Positions 6,991-23,994 of a DNA stretch of 30,569 nt are shown one piece after another. Origin of the DNA: a virus; IMG/VR virus record IMGVR_UViG_3300036760_000267, positions 1-30,569 of that record, one strand, 5' to 3'. The position numbers were made by a program, and so were the translations under genes. Positions within the stretch are counted from its first letter, which is position 1. Every line of letters starts with the position of its first letter. Below the pieces are notes generated by a model. It did no database searches. It was not told the origin of the DNA and saw nothing but the letters and a program-made list of their open reading frames with translations.

Positions 6991-8139
6991 ATGATCGAAC
7001 TCACCGAGAAACAACCGACACCCGCATTGCCCGAGGCCAAACAGCTCGAAGCATTGATCGACGAGGCCATCCAGAAGAAGATTCGCGTCTATCCCCGGAA
7101 CTCGCTCTGGGCAAGCCAACTGGATCATCCCTGCGTGAGAGAAAACGAGTACGGTCTGACCCGATGGCAAGACCAGAAGTTGACCCCGGGATGGTTGCAG
7201 GAGATATTTGAAGAGGGCAGGATTCACGAAGATGCAATCATTGAGAAGTTGAAGGACGCGGGCTTCAAAATCCGGCAATCGCAGCGACCTTTGTTCGAGA
7301 AGGTCAGGGTCAACGGGACTGAGTACAAGTACGGGATCTCCGGGCGCTTGGACTTCGAGATCACGCACGAAGCACTTGGCGGCATCTGGTATCCGGTGGA
7401 AGCGAAGTCAATGGAGCCCTTCGCCTGGGATTCGATCAATTCCGTTGAGGATATGAAGAACCACAAGCGGTACTATCTGCGGATGTACATAGGGCAAATC
7501 CAGATGTATCTATATGCGTCCAGCCGCGAGCACGGGCTGATGGTTCTGAAGAACAAGGTCAGCGGTCGGCTCAAGTTCATCTGGATCACGCTTGACCTCG
7601 ACGTTGTGGAGCGGATGCTCAAGAAGGCCGAGCAGATCAACGAAGCCGTCGCCAAAGCCCAGGCAGACCCGCAGAAGGCAGAAGAACTCCTGAGTCCCCG
7701 CATTGAATACAACGAGCAGATTTGTGGGCGCTGTGCGTTTGCCCATATCTGTTTGCCCGATCAGCAATTCGGCCATCAGGAGATCGACCTGGACAGCGAG
7801 ACGGAAGCCAAACTGCGCCGGCGCGAAGAACTGAAAACCGCCAAAGACGAGTTCGAGGATTTGGATGAAGAAGTCAAGGCGGGATTCAAGAAACGCGGCA
7901 AAGGCAAGTATCTGGTGGCGGCATCGTTCAACGTGGATGTGTCCGAGGTATCAACGACCAAGTACGATGTTCCGAAGGAGTTGAAAGAGCAGTACGCGTC
8001 GTCGTCGTCGTACCTGAAGGTCAGCATCAAGGCGTTGAAACCGACCGATGGAAATGCCGAGGAGAAGAAGGCCGAACAGTCTGCCGTGGAAGTTCCAATG
8101 GTCAACAAAGACTTCCTGAAAAAGTCACATAGGAGATAA
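6991..8139 (+). CDS. Cas4/AddB-like PD-(D/E)XK exonuclease with FeS cysteines
   Basis: 382 aa, two bases after the previous stop. Nuclease motifs are in order: H80 (GRIHE), D121 (SGRLD), E137-x-K139 (VEAKS) and Q169-x-x-x-Y173. Four cysteines fit the iron-sulphur site of Cas4 and AddB: C48 alone, then C245-x-x-C248-x5-C254. Such enzymes resect DNA ends and give single strands for annealing. The C-terminal 100 residues are Lys/Glu-rich with a Ser run, probably a partner-binding tail. There is no CRISPR array in the window, so this is a phage recombination nuclease. Its order in the operon supports that. Confidence 0.9.
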   Translation: MIELTEKQPTPALPEAKQLEALIDEAIQKKIRVYPRNSLWASQLDHPCVRENEYGLTRWQDQKLTPGWLQEIFEEGRIHEDAIIEKLKDAGFKIRQSQRPLFEKVRVNGTEYKYGISGRLDFEITHEALGGIWYPVEAKSMEPFAWDSINSVEDMKNHKRYYLRMYIGQIQMYLYASSREHGLMVLKNKVSGRLKFIWITLDLDVVERMLKKAEQINEAVAKAQADPQKAEELLSPRIEYNEQICGRCAFAHICLPDQQFGHQEIDLDSETEAKLRRREELKTAKDEFEDLDEEVKAGFKKRGKGKYLVAASFNVDVSEVSTTKYDVPKELKEQYASSSSYLKVSIKALKPTDGNAEEKKAEQSAVEVPMVNKDFLKKSHRR

Positions 8140-8145
8140 TGAACC

Positions 8146-8778
8146 ATGCCAACCACAGAACTGACTCTTTATCAGAAGGGTGAACTCACCCTGCGCGAGT
8201 TGCAAGAGAAGGCAAAGACCCTTCAAGTCACAGACGACACCATCGACTTTGCCGCTGAGACGCTGGCGATTGCGAAGCGTCTAGTGACCGTCCTCGACGA
8301 GGAGAGAACCGCCGAAACCGATCCGCACTACCGAATCTACAAGGCAATCAATGACAAGTACAGCCTGCTCATCAGGCCCTGCAAGGACATAGCTACAAAG
8401 GTCGAGAATCAGATCGCCGCCTACAACCGGGCGAAGAGGGAAGAGGCGGAGCGCAAACGCCGCGAATACGAGCGAGAACTTGCAGAGGCCGAGAGAAAGC
8501 GCCAGCAGGAATTGAAGAAGGCCGAAAAGAAGGGCATTGAACCGCCGCCCGCAGTGGTTCTTCCGCCACCGCCCCCAGTTGAAGTGCCAAAAGAGAAGAT
8601 CGCCACCACGCTCGGCAACGTGAAGATCAAGGAACGCTGGACGTACGATGTCGTGGCCTTCAACCAAGTCCCACGAGAGTTCTTGATGGTTGACGAGAAG
8701 GGGGTATTGAACGCGATCAACGCAAAGGTAGGGCCGATGCGAAATATCGCTGGCCTGAGAATCTATCCAGAGGCATAG
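8146..8778 (+). CDS. Coiled-coil protein of the recombination module
   Basis: 210 aa with GGAGA before the ATG. Residues 90-130 are a long, highly charged coiled coil rich in Arg, Glu and Lys. Next comes a Pro-rich linker (residues 133-150) and a compact C-terminal domain with KERWTYDVVAFNQVP and an N-AGLRIYPEA end. Proteins of this shape often stand beside phage recombination nucleases; their role is not established. It could be a structural partner of the exonuclease or the 354-aa protein. Confidence 0.7.
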   Translation: MPTTELTLYQKGELTLRELQEKAKTLQVTDDTIDFAAETLAIAKRLVTVLDEERTAETDPHYRIYKAINDKYSLLIRPCKDIATKVENQIAAYNRAKREEAERKRREYERELAEAERKRQQELKKAEKKGIEPPPAVVLPPPPPVEVPKEKIATTLGNVKIKERWTYDVVAFNQVPREFLMVDEKGVLNAINAKVGPMRNIAGLRIYPEA

Positions 8779-8781
8779 TCT

Positions 8782-9168
8782 ATGTCTGACAGCATCTCCA
8801 ACTGTGTCCACGAACTCGAAACCCTGAGAATGAAGTACGGCTATTTCGTCTGGGATTATGCGGTGAAAAAGATAAACCGCAAGAGACTCCAAAACTACGA
8901 CCGGGACAAACGCGAGCGCTTCCCGGCTCGTATGTATCAGCGGCTCTTCGACAAACAGCACGGGGCCTGCGGGATCTGCCTACTGCCCCTAGATGTTCCG
9001 GCGAAATCTCGGGGCAACGTGATCGACCACAAAGACCCGAACGAGGCGAACTTCAACAAGTTCCCGAACCTCCAACTCGTCCATAAGAAGTGCAACGATG
9101 AAAAAGCTGCCAAGTCAATGGTTGAGCAGTCGAAGCATACTGGGCGAACAATAGCAGATTTGGTATGA
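8782..9168 (+). CDS. HNH endonuclease
   Basis: 128 aa. The HNH fold is visible: C63-x-x-C66 (GACGIC), the catalytic VIDHKDPN (D82-H83), N96 and the final LVHKKCNDEKAAKS with H101 and C104. Such nucleases cut DNA with a metal ion. The enzyme may be a free-standing homing-type nuclease, or help replication or packaging. It is the last gene before the cassette block. Its stop overlaps an ATG (ATGA) that opens a 37-codon frame. Confidence 0.9.
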   Translation: MSDSISNCVHELETLRMKYGYFVWDYAVKKINRKRLQNYDRDKRERFPARMYQRLFDKQHGACGICLLPLDVPAKSRGNVIDHKDPNEANFNKFPNLQLVHKKCNDEKAAKSMVEQSKHTGRTIADLV

Positions 9169-9278
9169 ACAATTCAGGCAAGATGCTCTTACCCGTGAGG
9201 ATAGATGAACAAACGTGGGATTCTACCATTGGTAGCGTCGTAGACGGCCTTTCATTGGAATCCCCGACTCTTGCCTGA
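9165..9278 (+). CDS. Possible 37-aa protein coupled to HNH gene
   Basis: The ATG overlaps the HNH stop as ATGA and opens a 37-codon frame starting MNNSGKMLLPVRIDE and ending LESPTLA. It has no family and no own binding site, so it would depend on coupling. The same bases form a strong nested RNA fold (9174-9278), so the reading frame could be incidental. Confidence 0.3.
   Translation: MNNSGKMLLPVRIDEQTWDSTIGSVVDGLSLESPTLA
9174..9278. other. Nested multi-branched palindrome
   Basis: TCAGGCAAGA (9174-9183) is the exact inverted repeat of TCTTGCCTGA (9269-9278). Inside, GGGATTC (9217-9223) pairs with GAATCCC (9258-9264). Within that, two small hairpins follow each other: TACC/GGTA (9224-9234) and CGTC/GACG (9236-9246). 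It lies exactly between the phage HNH gene and the first cassette gene, so it may mark the left border of the inserted block or be a structured RNA. Confidence 0.5.
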
Positions 9279-9299
9279 GTTTGTTTGAAAGGAAAGAAA

Positions 9300-9781: not shown

Positions 9782-9868
9782 ACGCTAACGTCCGAGGCAA
9801 AACGCAGCGAAGTTGAGCGACAAGTCCGTGCAAAAACCGAAGAGCGACATTTTGCCGATTGTTAGCCA
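9782..9868 (+). repeat. attC-like site 1 (integron recombination site)
   Basis: GCTAAC (9784-9789) is the inverted repeat of GTTAGC (9861-9866), the outer R arms. Inside, GGCAAAA faces TTTTGCC as the inner L arms, with short unmatched spacers between the arms. The centre is about 45 bases long. About 85 bases, imperfect palindrome, 3' end GTT: this matches attC architecture. Apart from the ends it is nearly identical to site 2. Confidence 0.8.
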
Positions 9869-9895
9869 CCATTGGCGGCAGAAAGGAAACCGGTG

Positions 9896-10099
9896 ATGGA
9901 AGAAAAAAGAGTTAAGATGAAGGTGATCAGAGAGAACGGTGAAATTGTAACGCTTGACTTGGATTACCCCGCATTTATTGGGGCGGGGGATGTGTTGAAT
10001 AAGATGTTCTGCGCTGATTTGACAGAACACTTTTTTACCAAAGACGGTTATTATGATGGTTGGGGGAAAGCAATGCGACCGCCAATTTCAATGCAGTGA
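9896..10099 (+). CDS. 67-aa cassette-borne protein
   Basis: ATG at 9896 after AAAGGA. A TTG at 9872 in the same frame lies within the cassette leader and lacks a site. The protein starts MEEKRVKMKVIRENGEIVTLD, looks beta-rich at first and then has a helix with Tyr/Phe residues. No family recognised. It is the first of two genes in the cassette between attC-like sites 1 and 2. Confidence 0.55.
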   Translation: MEEKRVKMKVIRENGEIVTLDLDYPAFIGAGDVLNKMFCADLTEHFFTKDGYYDGWGKAMRPPISMQ

Positions 10100-10134
10100 G
10101 CCAATCGCGCCTTGTAGCGCAAAGGAGAAACCCA

Positions 10135-10344
10135 ATGAACAAAGAAGGAACAGATTGCAACAGGATGAGAGTAAGCATTGAAGGTTTACGTGAACTTGCA
10201 ATTTACCTTGAAGGCATAAAACAAGGGCGCGGCGGAAGTCTTGAACCGCTTGGAACAATAGCTATTGATAATTTATGGGAAGCTATTCGAGAGTTGCAAC
10301 AAAGCCGCGTACCACAAGGCGCTACAAGAAGCACTGACGCCTAA
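10135..10344 (+). CDS. 69-aa cassette-borne protein
   Basis: ATG at 10135 behind AAAGGAG. The protein is helical, with a Gly-rich turn (KQGRGGSLEPLG) near the middle and an amphipathic end. No family recognised. Its stop codon TAA (10342-10344) lies inside the outer arm GCCTAAC of attC-like site 2. Genes running into the attC are common in integron cassettes. Confidence 0.6.
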   Translation: MNKEGTDCNRMRVSIEGLRELAIYLEGIKQGRGGSLEPLGTIAIDNLWEAIRELQQSRVPQGATRSTDA

Positions 10345-10425
10345 CGGTCGAGGCAAAACGCAGCGAGGTTGAGCGACAAGCCCGTGCAAAAACCGTTGAG
10401 CGACGTTTTGCCGATTGTTAGGCGT
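10337..10425 (+). repeat. attC-like site 2 (integron recombination site)
   Basis: ACGCCTAAC (10337-10345) is the exact inverted repeat of GTTAGGCGT (10417-10425). The cores GCCTAAC and GTTAGGC fit the R consensus RYYYAAC/GTTRRRY fully. The inner arms GGCAAAACG and CGTTTTGCC are also exact complements, separated from the R arms by unequal unpaired spacers. The body differs from site 1 at about seven of 79 positions by direct reading. This is the best attC in the window. Confidence 0.9.
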
Positions 10426-10453
10426 TCGTTACTCAACTGATTCGGGAGGTCGC

Positions 10454-10615
10454 ATGGGAACATATACCTATGGATTTGAAGAACTTCGCAATGAAATAAA
10501 TGGAAGACTTGAAGAACTTGAGGGCGATTTCGACCTAAAAGAACTTCGTCTTGCTCTCAAGTTAGTTGAGAAAGATTGGATCAGGAGATTGGGTGTGTTG
10601 GCTAAGAAAAAGTAA
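10454..10615 (+). CDS. 53-aa cassette-borne protein
   Basis: ATG at 10454 after GGGAGGT. The protein is one long amphipathic helix or helical hairpin rich in Leu and Glu with a basic end (LAKKK). No family recognised. It is the single gene of the cassette between attC-like sites 2 and 3. Confidence 0.6.
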   Translation: MGTYTYGFEELRNEINGRLEELEGDFDLKELRLALKLVEKDWIRRLGVLAKKK

Positions 10616-10617
10616 TG

Positions 10618-10749
10618 ACGCATAACGGTAAAGCACAACGCAGGCCCGAAAGGCTTGAGGCGGCAATGTTTCAAACGTCCGTGAATTGTCCGTGCAAAAT
10701 GAGCCATAACAACTCGATTGCCGCCGTCGTTGTGCGGATTGTTAAGTGC
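10618..10749 (+). repeat. attC-like site 3 (longer, diverged)
   Basis: The outer arms ACGCATAAC (10618-10626) and GTTAAGTGC (10741-10749) pair with a bulge. The inner arms GCACAACG and CGTTGTGC are exact complements, and a second inner pair GGCGGCAAT/ATTGCCGCC extends the fold. At about 132 bases it lies within the length range of attC sites. Its left arm nearly complements the 5' end of the preceding cassette (TTAGGCGT) and its right arm fits the end of the following cassette, as cassette biology predicts. Confidence 0.8.
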
Positions 10750-10771
10750 CGTTGCTCAAATGAAAGAAACG

Positions 10772-11494
10772 ATGACTCATATTGATCTCTTTACGGGTTT
10801 TGGCGGGTGGCCACTTGCGGCACATACGGTTTGGAGAGAAAAATACTTGCCACTCGCATTCTGCGAATTGGATGAGAGTGCAAGGCGTGAACTGCGTAGG
10901 TGTTGGCCCAGTGTGTGCATTCACCAAGACGTGCGGAGGCTGAATGGCAAGAAATACCGAGGCGTTGACATACTCACTGGCTCTCCACCATGCCAACCCT
11001 TCAGCCGCGCCGGGAGGCGACTTGGCCGCGCTGATGACCGCGCGCTCTGGTCGGAGATGTTTCGCGTTATCAAAGAAGCAAGGCCCGATTGGATTTGTTA
11101 CGAAAACGTTGATCGAGTCGTGCCAGTGGAGATCAACAATGTCATTGATGACTTGGAGAGTGAGGGCTTTGAAGCGCAACCGTTTATTATTCCAGCTGCG
11201 GCTGTCGGAGCGAACCATATCAGGTACCGATGCTGGATTGTTGCCCACGCCAACGGCGCATCTAAGCAAGTTGCAACATGCACACCGCTCAAGAACCAGG
11301 CAGCGCGACGGCAAGTCTGGCCCATCGTTGAAAGAAATCCTTGGCAAAGTCCCTTCGCCGGCTTACGTGCGTTGGATGATGGGCTTCCCGAATGGAGCGC
11401 AGAATTGAAGGGTTTGGGAAATGCGATAGTGCCGCAAGTGGCGATGAGGGTTCTTGATGCGATACGGCTATACCAACAAAGCAATGGCACTTAA
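10772..11494 (+). CDS. C5-cytosine DNA methyltransferase in a cassette
   Basis: 240 aa from the ATG at 10772, which has GAAAG before it. An in-frame ATG at 10760 adds four residues; earlier starts would lie in the attC. Motifs: DLFTGFGG (residues 5-12, SAM binding), SPPCQ with catalytic C74, ENV (111-113), R-x-R near 151-153, and GLGNAIVPQVA near the end. The recognition domain is short, as in many phage enzymes, so the target cannot be read. It probably protects DNA from restriction. The stop codon lies in GGCACTTAAC, the exact complement of the cassette's 5' end GTTAAGTGCC. Confidence 0.9.
   Translation: MTHIDLFTGFGGWPLAAHTVWREKYLPLAFCELDESARRELRRCWPSVCIHQDVRRLNGKKYRGVDILTGSPPCQPFSRAGRRLGRADDRALWSEMFRVIKEARPDWICYENVDRVVPVEINNVIDDLESEGFEAQPFIIPAAAVGANHIRYRCWIVAHANGASKQVATCTPLKNQAARRQVWPIVERNPWQSPFAGLRALDDGLPEWSAELKGLGNAIVPQVAMRVLDAIRLYQQSNGT
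11485..11494 (+). other. Outer arm of a truncated attC, right edge of cassette block
   Basis: GGCACTTAAC is the exact inverted repeat of GTTAAGTGCC at 10741-10750. In a complete cassette this arm would be followed by about 60-100 bases of palindrome and a GTT end. Here ordinary phage sequence follows at once. The array therefore stops inside the attC of its last cassette. Confidence 0.7.
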
Positions 11495-11527
11495 CTCACG
11501 CATTAACGACACTCAGTAGGAGAGGAC

Positions 11528-11710
11528 ATGCCAAACATCAGACCGTTACTGACGTTCCTCGAAATTCAAGACCCGCTCGCTCGTGAAAAAATCTACGCAT
11601 ATTCAGACCGGCTCTTAGAGTGTGGGTATGAAGTCCCCTCCGGTGAACGACTGAGGGCCGCTTTTGAGAGACGGCAGAAACAGGAGCGAGAGGATTCAAA
11701 CGGGTGGTAA
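11528..11710 (+). CDS. 60-aa hypothetical protein
   Basis: The ATG follows TAGGAGAGG with a suitable gap. The protein is helical, with an Arg/Glu-rich second half (ERLRAAFERRQKQERE). No family recognised. It is the first gene after the cassette block and overlaps the next gene by seven bases, so it probably belongs to the phage's own small-gene operon. Confidence 0.55.
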   Translation: MPNIRPLLTFLEIQDPLAREKIYAYSDRLLECGYEVPSGERLRAAFERRQKQEREDSNGW

Positions 11711-12003
11711 ACGCTGGAAATAACTGCCTAGGCCGTGTTGTACCGCGTGAACTTAGGGTGATCCATGCAGTATATCGTCGGAGGGTGCGGCTCGTCCTAC
11801 GGCGTTTTAAGCGAGGGACTTCGATTAGGAAGATTGCCAAGAGCCTGAGACTCAGTCATCCGACGATCAGAACGATCATTTCAAATCCACAAAAAGCGGT
11901 GTCCCGCAAGACGATGATAAGGGTCATTCAAGGCACGGGGATTGGGAAGAAGAAAACAATCACGCGGCCTGTCGTTGGACGATGGTGCAGCGATGCAGTC
12001 TAG
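11704..12003 (+). CDS. Helix-turn-helix protein
   Basis: 99 aa from a GTG at 11704, overlapping the previous gene by seven bases. Residues 38-62 read TSIRKIAKSLRLSHPTIRTI, a resolvase/transposase-type helix-turn-helix, and the flanks are strongly basic. No catalytic domain follows. It could be a small DNA-binding regulator, or a remnant of the N-terminal domain of a transposase-like protein. No inverted repeats of an insertion sequence are seen around it. Confidence 0.6.
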   Translation: MVNAGNNCLGRVVPRELRVIHAVYRRRVRLVLRRFKRGTSIRKIAKSLRLSHPTIRTIISNPQKAVSRKTMIRVIQGTGIGKKKTITRPVVGRWCSDAV

Positions 12004-12039
12004 GTGGAGCGCAAATAAGTCAAACAAGAAAGGCAACCG

Positions 12040-12294
12040 ATGAGCAAGGAAACCTTTAAGCCGACGGTGAGATTTGCCGCGACGAGAAAGCAACTGAAGA
12101 GACTTCAACCGCTGAAGAGGGCACTCTTGAAACATCGCGGCTACATTCTCGGTGAGGTATATTTGACATCGAATGATAAGGCCGAACGGATCGGAACGAT
12201 GAGGTTCCATTACATTCCGACCGAGGCGGCAGACGTTATTCAGGAGGGGATAAAAAAGGCGGCAATAATAGTGATTAAAGAGGGCAGGGAGTAA
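12040..12294 (+). CDS. Small basic hypothetical protein
   Basis: 84 aa with AAAGG before the ATG. The first 35 residues are very basic (Lys/Arg clusters), followed by a short beta-helix domain ending KAAIIVIKEGRE. No family recognised. It may contact nucleic acid because of its charge. It sits in a run of small genes before the DPPY methyltransferase. Confidence 0.55.
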   Translation: MSKETFKPTVRFAATRKQLKRLQPLKRALLKHRGYILGEVYLTSNDKAERIGTMRFHYIPTEAADVIQEGIKKAAIIVIKEGRE

Positions 12295-12300
12295 CCTCAA

Positions 12301-12660
12301 ATGAACCGCGCTGGAATCTCAAATGAGCAATACCTGGAAAAAGCGGCAGACGTGTTCTCTCTTGTGATTCGCCGGACCAAGCAAGATCCCATCAAAGCTG
12401 AGACGATTCAGGGGCTCACCGGCGTGGACACAAGGATTGTGGCTGATATGTTGCGACAGTTTGAAATACGCGGGATCGGGATTTGCTCGGGGCCGTTCGG
12501 TTATTATCTCGCAAGGGACAGGCGCGAATGGGAAGGCCACATCAACAAAGAGCGCGACCGCGGAATCAAGATCATTAAGAAAACAGTTCAGGCGAAGAAG
12601 AGTTATGTAGTGGGCCCGACATTGTTCGATCAACCGGAACAAGCGAGGAAGGTCGGCTGA
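12301..12660 (+). CDS. Winged-helix-like protein
   Basis: 119 aa. GGGAG lies about ten bases upstream. Residues 25-75 (IKAETIQGLTGVDTRIVADMLRQFEIRGIGIC followed by a beta turn) look like a winged helix: helix, helix, recognition helix and wing. The C-terminal third is basic with a TLFDQP end. Probably DNA-binding, perhaps linked to replication or regulation. No specific family recognised. Confidence 0.6.
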   Translation: MNRAGISNEQYLEKAADVFSLVIRRTKQDPIKAETIQGLTGVDTRIVADMLRQFEIRGIGICSGPFGYYLARDRREWEGHINKERDRGIKIIKKTVQAKKSYVVGPTLFDQPEQARKVG

Positions 12661-12675
12661 CTGTGCATCGAGTAA

Positions 12676-12687
12676 TCAATCCGCAAG
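12676..12687 (+). repeat. Repeated leader TCAATCCGCAAG, copy 1
   Basis: Twelve bases directly before the methyltransferase start at 12691. The same bases recur at 13373 and 13861, so the two-gene unit 12691-13844 is flanked and divided by copies. In this copy the following GGAGA is lost (AAGCAAATG), leaving a weak Shine-Dalgarno site. Confidence 0.6.
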
Positions 12688-12690
12688 CAA

Positions 12691-13395
12691 ATGATTGAGC
12701 CTTATTATTCTGAGAATGGAATCACCCTATACAACACGAGATGTGAAGATGTGCTGCCACAACTCATAGAACAGGTGGATTTAGTGCTGACTGACCCACC
12801 GTATGGAAGTGGAGGTCGGGACGGTTCTACTCACCTCAGTGATGATGCGATAACGGGGAATCGAATGTTGAGCGATAGTCACATCTGGTTAATGCGTACT
12901 GTTGGTGCTCAATGTTGTGGAATAACTAAGGATGATTCGCATTGTTACGTTTTCTCGGATTGGCGAAAATGGAGGGAAACACAGATAGCATTTGAGACGG
13001 TCGGTTGGGAATTGCGCTCATTGATTGTATGGGACAAAGGAAATGGAATGGGTGAGTTTTGGCGAAGTAGTTATGAACTAATCCTCTTTCTGACAAAGCG
13101 AAAACCGCGCAAACTAAACAGTGGAAATTGTTACAATGTTGTAAAATATCCATCCGTGAAAAATGGCACTCATCCGACAGAAAAACCAGTTGACCTATGT
13201 ATATTCTTAATGGGTGCGAGTTCTAACAAGGGCGAAATCGTCCTTGATCCATTCGCGGGCAGCGGTACAACCCTCGTCGCCGCAAAGAGACTTGGACGTA
13301 AAGCCATCGGCATTGAAATCTCAGAGAAGTATTGTGAAATCGCCGTGAATAGACTCAGACAGATGGAACTTTTCAATCCGCAAGGAGAGCAATGA
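12691..13395 (+). CDS. DNA adenine-type methyltransferase (DPPY, beta class)
   Basis: 234 aa. Motif IV TDPPYG is near the N-terminus (residues 34-39) and motif I LDPFAGSGTT near the C-terminus (185-194), preceded by HPTEKP (161-166). This IV-then-I order is the beta class, and DPPY favours N6-adenine, though N4-cytosine is not excluded. No restriction enzyme is next to it, so it is an orphan enzyme, probably protecting phage DNA. Its stop overlaps the next start (ATGA), and its last codons contain copy 2 of the leader repeat. Confidence 0.92.
   Translation: MIEPYYSENGITLYNTRCEDVLPQLIEQVDLVLTDPPYGSGGRDGSTHLSDDAITGNRMLSDSHIWLMRTVGAQCCGITKDDSHCYVFSDWRKWRETQIAFETVGWELRSLIVWDKGNGMGEFWRSSYELILFLTKRKPRKLNSGNCYNVVKYPSVKNGTHPTEKPVDLCIFLMGASSNKGEIVLDPFAGSGTTLVAAKRLGRKAIGIEISEKYCEIAVNRLRQMELFNPQGEQ
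13373..13388 (+). repeat. Repeated leader TCAATCCGCAAGGAGA, copy 2
   Basis: Lies in the last codons of the methyltransferase gene (Phe-Asn-Pro-Gln-Gly-Glu) and supplies the Shine-Dalgarno site of the gene at 13392. It is identical over 16 bases to copy 3 at 13861. Confidence 0.65.
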
Positions 13396-14015: not shown

Positions 14016-14594
14016 GTGGCCAAGCGTTTCACTGATACTGACAAATGGAAAAAGGAATGGTTTGTGGAGATTCGAGGTCGTGATAAACTCCTTTGGCAGT
14101 ATCTATGCGACAACTGCGATCACGCGGGTATCTGGGATGTCAACCTAGTATTGGCATCCAGGTTGTGTGGTTTCAAATACGTTCGTGAGGATGTAAAACA
14201 GATTTTCGGCAAACAAATCAAGGAATTTGACAATGGGAAACGATGGTGGATACCCTCGTTCATCAAATTCCAATATGACTGTGCGGTGGAGCGACTAAAC
14301 CCAAAGAATATAGTTCATCGAAGCGTACTGAGAACTCTTGTTCGGTACGATCTTTACTCCCTATCGGTTGAGCAGCAAGGGGCTTTCAAGGAGCTTCCGA
14401 GGGGCTTCGAAGCCCCTAAAGATAAAGATAAGGATAAGGAAAAGGATAAAGAAAAAGCTGTTAGTACAGGTGTGATTGTCAAAAAAAAGAAAGTATGTAC
14501 ACTTCACGACAATGGGAAGCCATTTTACTACGAAGGACAGTTTTGCCCTAGATGTTTCACGCCAATAGGAGAACCCCAAAATGTCGACTTCTAA
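14016..14594 (+). CDS. Phage replication protein, DnaD/replisome-organiser-like
   Basis: 192 aa, starting at a GTG a few bases after AAGGAG. The N-terminus (KRFTDTDKWKKEWF, then LLWQYLCDNCDHAGIWDVN) is typical of a phage winged-helix protein family placed at the start of replication modules, related to replisome-organiser domains. A highly charged linker made of alternating K, D and E follows at residues 134-147. The end carries C-x-H and CPRC cysteines, a possible zinc site. It probably binds the phage origin or loads helicase, inferred from family resemblance. No helicase or loader is next to it. Confidence 0.75.
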   Translation: MAKRFTDTDKWKKEWFVEIRGRDKLLWQYLCDNCDHAGIWDVNLVLASRLCGFKYVREDVKQIFGKQIKEFDNGKRWWIPSFIKFQYDCAVERLNPKNIVHRSVLRTLVRYDLYSLSVEQQGAFKELPRGFEAPKDKDKDKEKDKEKAVSTGVIVKKKKVCTLHDNGKPFYYEGQFCPRCFTPIGEPQNVDF

Positions 14595-14724
14595 TAGGTG
14601 TCTAGGTTTGATTTTCTTGGGCATCGCGGTTGTTGCCGCGGTTGCAATCATCTTGTGTCGGAGAGTTGGTGATGATCTCGCTTGCGGCTTCGATTTCCGA
14701 GACGGCGAACCCATATTTCTCTAA
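14581..14724 (+). CDS. 47-aa single-pass membrane protein
   Basis: The ATG at 14581 lies inside the end of the replication gene and follows AGGAGA with an 8-base gap. Residues 8-26 are a hydrophobic segment (CLGLIFLGIAVVAAVAIIL), preceded by a short polar start and followed by an acidic tail. The overlap of 14 bases and the good binding site support real translation. Function unknown. Confidence 0.55.
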   Translation: MSTSNRCLGLIFLGIAVVAAVAIILCRRVGDDLACGFDFRDGEPIFL

Positions 14725-14737
14725 CACTGGAGGCGTT

Positions 14738-14902
14738 ATGTTTATCAAGGTCTGTTTGTTTGTGTTCGCGATTCTGTTGTTACTGGGATTTGTGGGTTAT
14801 CACGACTGGGGCGGCGGCCTGACTGTCCAGGCTCTGGTGTGCCTGATTGGAGCGGGCATCTTTGGCGCGCTATACCGAATAATCCAGCTTCTGGAGAAGT
14901 GA
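14738..14902 (+). CDS. 54-aa two-pass membrane protein
   Basis: GGAGG precedes the ATG at 14738. Two hydrophobic stretches (about residues 3-19 and 28-46) are separated by a short Gly-rich turn (YHDWGGG). This is the shape of a small holin or an exclusion-type membrane protein. It is distant from the lysozyme gene and lies among other small membrane proteins. It overlaps the next gene by one base (TGATG). Confidence 0.65.
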   Translation: MFIKVCLFVFAILLLLGFVGYHDWGGGLTVQALVCLIGAGIFGALYRIIQLLEK

Positions 14903-15117
14903 TGGACAGACTCATCATCCAATGTTGTTGCGGCTATTCGTTCTCGGTGGCGCGCAAGCAGCTCAAAGAAAATCCAAACGGTGTAGTCGAGTGTCCAGGC
15001 CGGGGCATGAAGTCCTGTAGGCGGGTATTTCGGGCGAGCGACTTGTTGAAGATGATCGGTGTGCAGGCGGTCTACTACGTCGAAAACAAGCAAGAAAATC
15101 TAGGACTGAAAGGATAG
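14902..15117 (+). CDS. Small cysteine-rich zinc-binding-like protein
   Basis: 71 aa, coupled to the upstream gene by TGATG. The CQCxxCGYSF-like start (CCCG, residues 8-11) and CPGRGMKSC near 31-39 could hold a zinc ion. The remainder is helical with Lys/Glu at the end. No membrane segment. No family recognised. Confidence 0.6.
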   Translation: MDRLIIQCCCGYSFSVARKQLKENPNGVVECPGRGMKSCRRVFRASDLLKMIGVQAVYYVENKQENLGLKG

Positions 15118-22202: not shown

Positions 22203-22406
22203 ATGACCTCCGCCCGCGAAAGAAGGAACAAGCGTATCGGCGATCTGTACCTGCGATTCCGCAAGGACGGATTATCAGACAAAGACGCGGTATGGAAAAT
22301 CTACGAGTCCCTGGAGAATCACGACGGCTGGTGTTTGTCCGAGGGCACAATCAGAGTCATAGCGACATTCAAGGATTACGGGAAGAAGAAGAATGAAGTG
22401 GCTTGA
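22203..22406 (+). CDS. Small hypothetical protein
   Basis: 67 aa; starts three bases after the XRE gene. Helical and charged, with a Trp-containing middle (AVWKIYESLE) resembling a small helix-turn-helix-like protein. No family firmly recognised. It overlaps the large methyltransferase gene by 14 bases. Confidence 0.55.
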   Translation: MTSARERRNKRIGDLYLRFRKDGLSDKDAVWKIYESLENHDGWCLSEGTIRVIATFKDYGKKKNEVA

Positions 22407-23994
22407 CTGGTATGGTTGTTATAAGACAAGCTCCAAGCCCTGGCTGGTCCCGGAGGCATTTTCTCATCCGGCGAAGATGTCCATTGGCCTGTGTCAAAGG
22501 ATCTTTGAGTTTATGGAAGACAAGGGGATGATTCACAGGGGCGACGTCATCGTTGACCCGTTCGGCGGTATCGGGACAACTGCACTGGTGGGAGCGACGA
22601 AGGGCTATCAAGTCATCTGTGTTGAGTTGGAGGAGCGATTCATTCGGATGAGTAACAAGTACGAGTGCCCTGGCATCTCGAAGGAAGAATGGCTCCGGTG
22701 GTTCAACCGTTTCGGGAAAAACATTGTTCTCTGTCCGAGTTGTCAAGGGAAATTGCAGGGAGCGTACGAAGGCAATGGAGTCATTCCATCGAAGAGCGCG
22801 CACCTTTTTGTCGGCAACGTGGAGAAGCACCGCGAACTCTGGGAGCGATTGAACAAGCCCATCCCGATAGTGATTCAAGGCGACAGCCGGAAGTTGTCGG
22901 AGATTCTTGCCACGGTAGACGCAGCGGTGATGAGTCCGCCCTATAATCTTCCAATGTCCCAAGACCATCCGGGAAGGTCGGGCGGGAAGCGGGGTATTGA
23001 GCCATCAGAAAAGGGGGCTTTCGTTCGCTATGGCGATACCGATGGACAAATTGAGTCGCTTCCTCAAGGCTCCATCTCTGCTGTTATCTCAAGTCCGCCG
23101 TACGCAGAAAGCTTGAAGCAGGAATCCGAAGAGCAAACGGCGCGGAAACAAAGACGGATCGCTCGGTCCAAAAGCATTTATGATGGCCGAAAAATTGAAA
23201 CTGATTCACCTGGGAAAGCTGGCCTGGGCGGGGGTTATGGCGAATCAGACGGTCAAATCGCTTCTCTCAAAGACCGAGGCATCGAAGCGGTCATTACCTC
23301 GCCGCCCTACGCAGAGATCCGCCAAGACGGTGGTTCAACGCGACCCGGGTACACCGGAATGACTCCTTACAGCGGTGAATCCCGAAATGCTTGGCGCACC
23401 ACCCGGGACCAGAAGAACATCGGCAACGTCCCCGAGGGCAACATCGCCAGCGTCATAACGAGTCCGCCGTACGAAAGTGCTGGGACGAAAGCAGATGAGA
23501 ACCCAGAGAATTACATACGACGTGACCAAGAACGATACGAGTTGATGAAAAGTAGGGGGATAGGTAGGCCCAAACAATCCCCGGGCCGATACTCTGGGAA
23601 CCGTGACAATATCGGGAACCAAAATGCCGAGACGTACTGGTCTGCGATGTTGACCGTTTTTTCCGAGTGCCATAAAATTCTCAAGGCTGGTGGCTATATG
23701 GCTGTGGTAGTAAAGGATTTCGTCCGCGACAAGCAGCGCGTACCCCTGTGCGACAATACGGTGCAGCTTCTCGAACATTTGGGCTTCAAAGTCAAGTACC
23801 GGGTACGGGCCTGGCTCGTCGAGGACCAAGGTGTTGCCGATATGTTTCACGGCAAGACAACGCTCAAGCAGCGAAAGTCTTTTTTTCGCCGATTGTGTGA
23901 GTCCAAAGGCAGTCCGAGGATTGATTTTGAGCAGGTAATTATATGCCAAAAAGTGTCAGGATTACAAGTCAATCAAACAGAGGGAAAGAAATGA
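22393..23994 (+). CDS. DNA methyltransferase with four SPPY motifs
   Basis: 533 aa. N-terminal part: HPAKMS (25-30) and motif I VDPFGGIGTT (54-63), then a zinc-like CPSC (114-117). Four catalytic-type SPPY motifs follow at residues 181, 234, 303 and 357. Motifs two to four each stand behind a similar lead-in (Gly-Gln-Ile or Asn-Ile-Gly, then five to eight residues, then AVI(T/S)SPPY). The C-terminal part (YWSAMLTVFSECHKILKAGGYM, VVVKDF) resembles the last strands of N4/N6 DNA methylases. SPPY favours N4-cytosine. Why four are kept is unknown: repeat expansion or decoy loops are possible. No restriction partner is seen. Confidence 0.88.
   Translation: MKWLDWYGCYKTSSKPWLVPEAFSHPAKMSIGLCQRIFEFMEDKGMIHRGDVIVDPFGGIGTTALVGATKGYQVICVELEERFIRMSNKYECPGISKEEWLRWFNRFGKNIVLCPSCQGKLQGAYEGNGVIPSKSAHLFVGNVEKHRELWERLNKPIPIVIQGDSRKLSEILATVDAAVMSPPYNLPMSQDHPGRSGGKRGIEPSEKGAFVRYGDTDGQIESLPQGSISAVISSPPYAESLKQESEEQTARKQRRIARSKSIYDGRKIETDSPGKAGLGGGYGESDGQIASLKDRGIEAVITSPPYAEIRQDGGSTRPGYTGMTPYSGESRNAWRTTRDQKNIGNVPEGNIASVITSPPYESAGTKADENPENYIRRDQERYELMKSRGIGRPKQSPGRYSGNRDNIGNQNAETYWSAMLTVFSECHKILKAGGYMAVVVKDFVRDKQRVPLCDNTVQLLEHLGFKVKYRVRAWLVEDQGVADMFHGKTTLKQRKSFFRRLCESKGSPRIDFEQVIICQKVSGLQVNQTEGKK

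Follow-up and report, generated by a model that had tools for sequence, protein, structure and literature searches.

A tailed phage genome carries an integrase-less array of attC-type sites in inverted polarity

The stretch of viral DNA analysed here, a single IMG/VR record of 30,569 bp (hereafter the window), encodes a tailed phage and carries an array of three cassettes, each with an attC-type site, in which the sites point against the polarity seen in most bacterial arrays. No integrase accompanies the array, and arrays of the same attC family recur in a divergent phage, where a duplicated junction element adjoins them. We consider it probable, at roughly 0.6, that the phage array is a cluster of attC sites lacking an integrase (CALIN) that serves, in inverted polarity, as a dock for the integron integrase (IntI) of its host. 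At least two neighbouring attC sites with no intI nearby, the usual definition of a CALIN, are present in the window, on contigs that may be fragments; intI beside attI, which defines a complete integron, was found in none of the three contigs studied.

All recognisable genes of the window lie on the + strand, and they include the terminase large subunit gene of a tailed phage (27588-29147) as well as genes for a Cas4-type exonuclease (6991-8139), an HNH protein and methyltransferases. A second viral contig contains the same stretch at 99.95% identity over 13.5 kb, and a more distant relative, L084, comes from a 58.5-kb contig whose best-conserved genes in common with the window share 57-76% amino acid identity, with the terminase and other common genes at lower identity. 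A search for further phage relatives returned only these two contigs. We judged an assembly artefact unlikely, since the same kind of array occurs both in the near-identical contig and in the divergent L084.

Three imperfect palindromes with outer and inner arms, reported in an original prediction made from the sequence alone, are present essentially where it placed them: attC1 (9783..9867, +; CGCTAAC...GTTAGCC), attC2 (10339..10423, +; GCCTAAC...GTTAGGC) and the longer, divergent attC3 (10620..10747, +; GCATAAC...GTTAAGT), with presumed crossover points at 9788/9789, 10344/10345 and 10625/10626, respectively. attC1 and attC2 are 91% identical across 81 nt without a gap. The core boxes, RYYYAAC/GTTRRRY, are perfectly complementary in attC2 (7/7), while attC1 and attC3 keep AAC/GTT and have mismatched outer bases. 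Inner arms are present in attC2 (GGCAAAACG/CGTTTTGCC, with unequal spacers of 6 and 4 nt) and in attC3 (GCACAACG/CGTTGTGC). When the whole window was shuffled as a first-order Markov sequence, the best site reached the palindrome score of attC2 (18.4) in 0 of 60 shuffles and equalled that of attC3 (16.1) in 10% of shuffled windows; the score of attC1 (13.3) is not significant alone. Folded as DNA, attC2 gave z -3.9 on + and z -2.6 on -. An Rfam scan yielded no credible match and a tRNA search none. In IMG/VR, the site motif is confined to these phages.

The extrahelical bases that the prediction suggested looking for did not appear in their canonical form: the L box of the phage sites forms a fully paired 9-bp stem that lacks the one-base extrahelical bulge of bacterial sites, for which a 2-nt bulge beside the L box may stand in. 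Because this base is missing we call the sites attC-type, a variant, and its absence, together with the 6/4 spacers, makes recombination by known IntI proteins uncertain.

As a yardstick for attC, we located integron integrase genes in 58 of 299 genomes of one phylum, plus plasmids, took their arrays, and aligned 51 bacterial attC sites to build two covariance models, R1 and R2, which differ only in the structure given. Searching the window and four pieces of the L084 contig (89 kb in all, scanned on both strands with filters off) with R2 returned exactly three matches at E<5, all on +: attC2 (24.6 bits, E 0.0034), attC1 (22.1 bits, E 0.012) and L084 14289-14409 (18.4 bits, E 0.08). The covariance search advised by the prediction therefore recovered attC1 and attC2 as the top matches in 89 kb and missed attC3, which the models left undetected and whose attC-type architecture is assigned by palindrome and cassette-end logic. 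Three L084 sites did not rise above chance in the models, two L084 sites are degenerate, and single-stranded DNA folding of three L084 sites gave no signal beyond shuffles. Two phages left out of model training served as controls: the sites of TJE1, two of them IntI1-validated (PMC9892861), scored 19.7-20.2 bits on the strand opposite its genes, and in MW202573.1 (2069-3738) four sites scored 24-39 bits on +, the strand that also carries its genes, including its methyltransferase gene. With scores at or above those of TJE1, attC1 and attC2 resemble attC at least as well as validated phage sites do. The model gave no convincing match in P12002L or in the scanned parts of PH101, and so overlooks some published phage sites. 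At 79 viral loci encoding relatives of this C5 methyltransferase it produced one weak extra match (locus L004, 1493-1569; 16.8 bits), which argues that this methyltransferase family is not generally cassette-borne.

The usual gene cassette, common though not universal, holds a sense-oriented gene with attC at its 3' end. Judged by class 1 cassettes, the bottom strand that folds and recombines in bacterial arrays is the one that reads TAACG...TTGTTA; the longest ORF lies opposite to it in 50 of 53 bacterial intervals, the remaining 3 being inverted. In the phage array, attC2 scores 20.0 bits under R1 on + versus 8.3 on -, and in the window, L084 and MW202573 the gene strand is the recombinogenic strand, whereas TJE1 has normal polarity. 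The relation of polarity to gene direction is secure for the methyltransferase genes only. G.T wobble asymmetry in cassette ends, tried as an indicator of the folding strand, came to 8 versus 5. Since the sites point opposite to the usual arrangement, each cassette reads on + as a site followed by its gene, and not, as had been supposed, as a gene followed by its site. We found no description of this inversion in the literature searched, which took in few subscription titles, and the inversion in MW202573 is not remarked on in those parts of Qi et al. (2023; PMC9892861) available to us.

Inverted polarity explains the cassette boundaries, including one at 11494/11495 that the original inventory, correct in its three palindromes, had overlooked along with the direction of the sites. 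Cassette 1 (10626..11494, +) comprises attC3 and a C5 cytosine DNA methyltransferase gene at about 10760-11494 (PF00145, E 5.6e-31; phrog_363); cassette 2 (10345..10625, +), whose ends are complementary, comprises attC2 and a gene for 53 aa (10454-10615); and cassette 3 (9789..10344, +) comprises attC1 and two small genes, 9896-10099 (67 aa) and 10135-10344 (69 aa). Shine-Dalgarno-like sequences stand in front of the three small genes, whose short ORFs had no family matches, and the 69-aa protein had no match among phages. The end of the methyltransferase gene, AGCAATGGCACTTAAC (11494/11495), is 94% complementary over 16 nt to GTTAAGTGCCGTTGCT at 10741, which supports the proposal that the methyltransferase is a cassette, and its stop codon sits within the R box. 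Followed along the minus strand, the array begins at 11494/11495 with TTAAGTGCC and proceeds from the methyltransferase cassette (gene antisense) to attC3, from the next cassette to attC2 and from the third to attC1; under the usual orientation the methyltransferase cassette would be without its site. The array head (11480..11530), which consists of the R box GGCACTTAAC at 11486-11495 and the junction sequence that follows, is a candidate attI-like insertion point.

Complementarity between the two ends of a cassette extends further in these phages than the core boxes. Among 8 phage cassettes (3 from the window, 5 from L084) the core is complementary at 6-7 of 7 positions, and beyond this 7-nt core the mean local score is 7.25 for a cassette's own ends and 4.3 when ends are swapped (p about 2e-4 by permutation, an optimistic value, as the L084 boundaries were picked by eye, which favours complementarity). 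The longest such stretch reaches about 23 nt. By comparison, 58 bacterial cassettes scored 4.57 for their own ends versus 4.07 for swapped ends, and long end repeats are absent from the cassettes of TJE1 and MW202573. The long inverted repeats on these cassettes may be relevant to the question, still open, of how integron cassettes are formed.

L084 carries two arrays of the same attC family as the window, with other cassette genes and in a different gene neighbourhood. On +, both arrays end at an R box (15067 and 16941) followed by the same element, TAACTACGGTAACTACGCACTTTTTGTTYGTAGTACTGTCCTATGGACG, in two copies that are 90% identical over 80 bp; there is no further copy in that contig, and the 21-base core of the element occurs in no other IMG/VR contig. 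The simplest reading, which we offer as a proposal from the sequence, is that the element would be an attI-like insertion point of which L084 has two copies. No convincing resemblance links the window junction to this element. A Shewanella prophage is known to have a pair of attI sites, one belonging to an integron and the other to a CALIN (PMC9892861). Two more DNA methyltransferase genes lie outside the window array, at 12691-13395 and 22393-23994; the former, just downstream of the array, is the homologue (36% identity) of an N6/N4 methyltransferase gene that L084 carries in a cassette (14431-15066). L084 also contains a piece of the exonuclease gene repeated in inverted orientation, at 8459-8644 (+) and 11330-11692 (-); the piece spans about 45 codons with 58% identity to the window protein, and the copy lies inside a long methyltransferase gene (11149-13062).

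Neither a tyrosine recombinase nor an integron integrase turned up when the window, the near-identical contig and L084, all linear records that are perhaps incomplete, were searched for integrase families. The prediction of attC sites clustered without an integrase thus holds, as does its observation that the 30.6-kb fragment has no integrase gene, which extends to the other two contigs. With no tyrosine recombinase in the three contigs, movement of the cassettes would require a host IntI. The further claim that the array was acquired from a host integron is unsupported as stated: the 5' arm pattern TAACGN{3,7}GGCAAAACGCAGCG, sought as an exact match in 84,980 genomes, gave 19 matches, none of them an attC, and no DNA similarity to the array was found among 50,697 phages and 72,556 plasmids. 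These searches neither show nor exclude such an acquisition. Because a phage only 57-76% identical has arrays of the same attC family, such arrays appear to reside in the phage lineage.

In our preferred reading, the IntI of an integron-bearing host would, during infection or lysogeny, fold each attC from the phage + strand and recombine it with the attI-like junction, with another attC or with the host array, so that cassettes would be gained, lost and swapped. The cargo includes a DNA methyltransferase, which could blunt restriction. Inverted polarity would keep the cassette genes co-directional with phage transcription while making the coding strand the recombinogenic one. Provided that replication proceeds in the direction of transcription, this strand would also serve as the lagging-strand template. 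Nowhere in the window does GC skew fall below zero, which suggests, though it does not prove, that the lagging-strand template is +. Inversion of the superintegron in Vibrio cholerae, which places the attC bottom strands on the lagging template, sharply increases excision (PMC11023631). A fuller version of this reading, in which the array is a phage-resident, integrase-less platform with an attI-like dock, repeated capture through host integrases, inverted cassettes whose recombinogenic strand lies on the lagging-strand template, and exchangeable anti-restriction genes, is one that we put forward tentatively.

A rather unlikely alternative is that an ancestor of the phage acquired a piece of integron array once and that this piece has since decayed as an inert relic that no longer recombines. 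The lack of an integrase in every contig, the degenerate L084 sites and the missing canonical extrahelical base would all fit such a history. It accounts less well for the fact that the window and L084 share an attC family yet differ in cassette genes and gene neighbourhoods, for the intact arms of attC1 and attC2, and for cassette ends that remain complementary, as would be the case were cassettes still moving in circular form. The palindromes could also be something other than attC, such as RNA-structure hairpins, terminators or another dispersed phage palindrome, and here attC2 does fold better on + (z -3.9), the transcribed sense, than on - (z -2.6). We regard this as highly improbable, the least likely of the explanations: models built independently from bacterial sites pick out attC1 and attC2 at or above the scores of validated phage attC sites, integrons are characterised by core boxes and by cassettes whose two ends complement each other, and the motif occurs nowhere else in IMG/VR and has no Rfam match.

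Another explanation retains attC sites and dispenses with the inversion, placing each site after its gene in the ordinary orientation and supposing that the methyltransferase cassette's own attC has been deleted. Genes and phage transcription do run on +, class 1 cassettes with truncated attC sites in which only R'' remains are known (PMC12901181), and attC3, unscored by the model, has no measured polarity. We nevertheless find this account unlikely, as both detectable window sites and the L084 site score only, or far better, on +, the strand to which bacterial genes are antisense in 50 of 53 intervals. Moreover, in three places (window 11495, L084 15067 and L084 16941) the deletion would have had to halt at an R box, and the two L084 positions adjoin the same element.

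Phage-borne CALINs with methyltransferases are a known kind of array, published for TJE1, PH101, P12002L and MW202573 by Qi et al. (2023; PMC9892861), who report that 5 of 6 tested sites were recombined by IntI1. The present array resembles those described there in its integrase-less attC sites in a tailed phage and in its short cassette genes alongside a DNA methyltransferase. Relative to that study, it belongs to a new phage family and adds inverted polarity (normal in TJE1, inverted in MW202573 on our reanalysis), the array start, with one repeated attI-like element heading the two L084 arrays, and inverted repeats at cassette ends, which in their long form distinguish these cassettes from those of TJE1 and MW202573. 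Like sedentary chromosomal integrons, the array consists of tandem cassettes with related attC sites between them; unlike them, it lacks intI, has only a handful of cassettes with genes on the recombinogenic strand, and resides in a phage genome. Treponema-type integrons (PMC3607928) likewise depart from the usual orientation, but in them it is intI that runs against the cassettes, whereas here there is no intI and attC is reversed relative to the cassette genes. If active, such arrays would make phages users of host gene-capture machinery, beyond carrying pieces of integrons, and inverted polarity would offer a testable reason why cassette turnover could be fast in phages and slow in chromosomes. 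Inverted cassettes could give a phage co-directional genes and exposed attC strands together.

Two features elsewhere in the window deserve mention. A strong, long hairpin directly after the HNH gene (9164..9289), not detected by the attC covariance models, folds as DNA with z -3.0 on one strand and -3.7 on the other; its arms are CAGGCAAGA/TCTTGCCTG with an inner arm GGGATTC/GAATCCC, and its AACAATTC...GTT arms make it possibly an attC-like site of opposite polarity. Between 16630 and 20617 lie genes resembling those for a nucleotide-sugar epimerase, a glycosyltransferase and an aminotransferase, a cluster that, going by these resemblances, suggests a sugar modification made by the phage.
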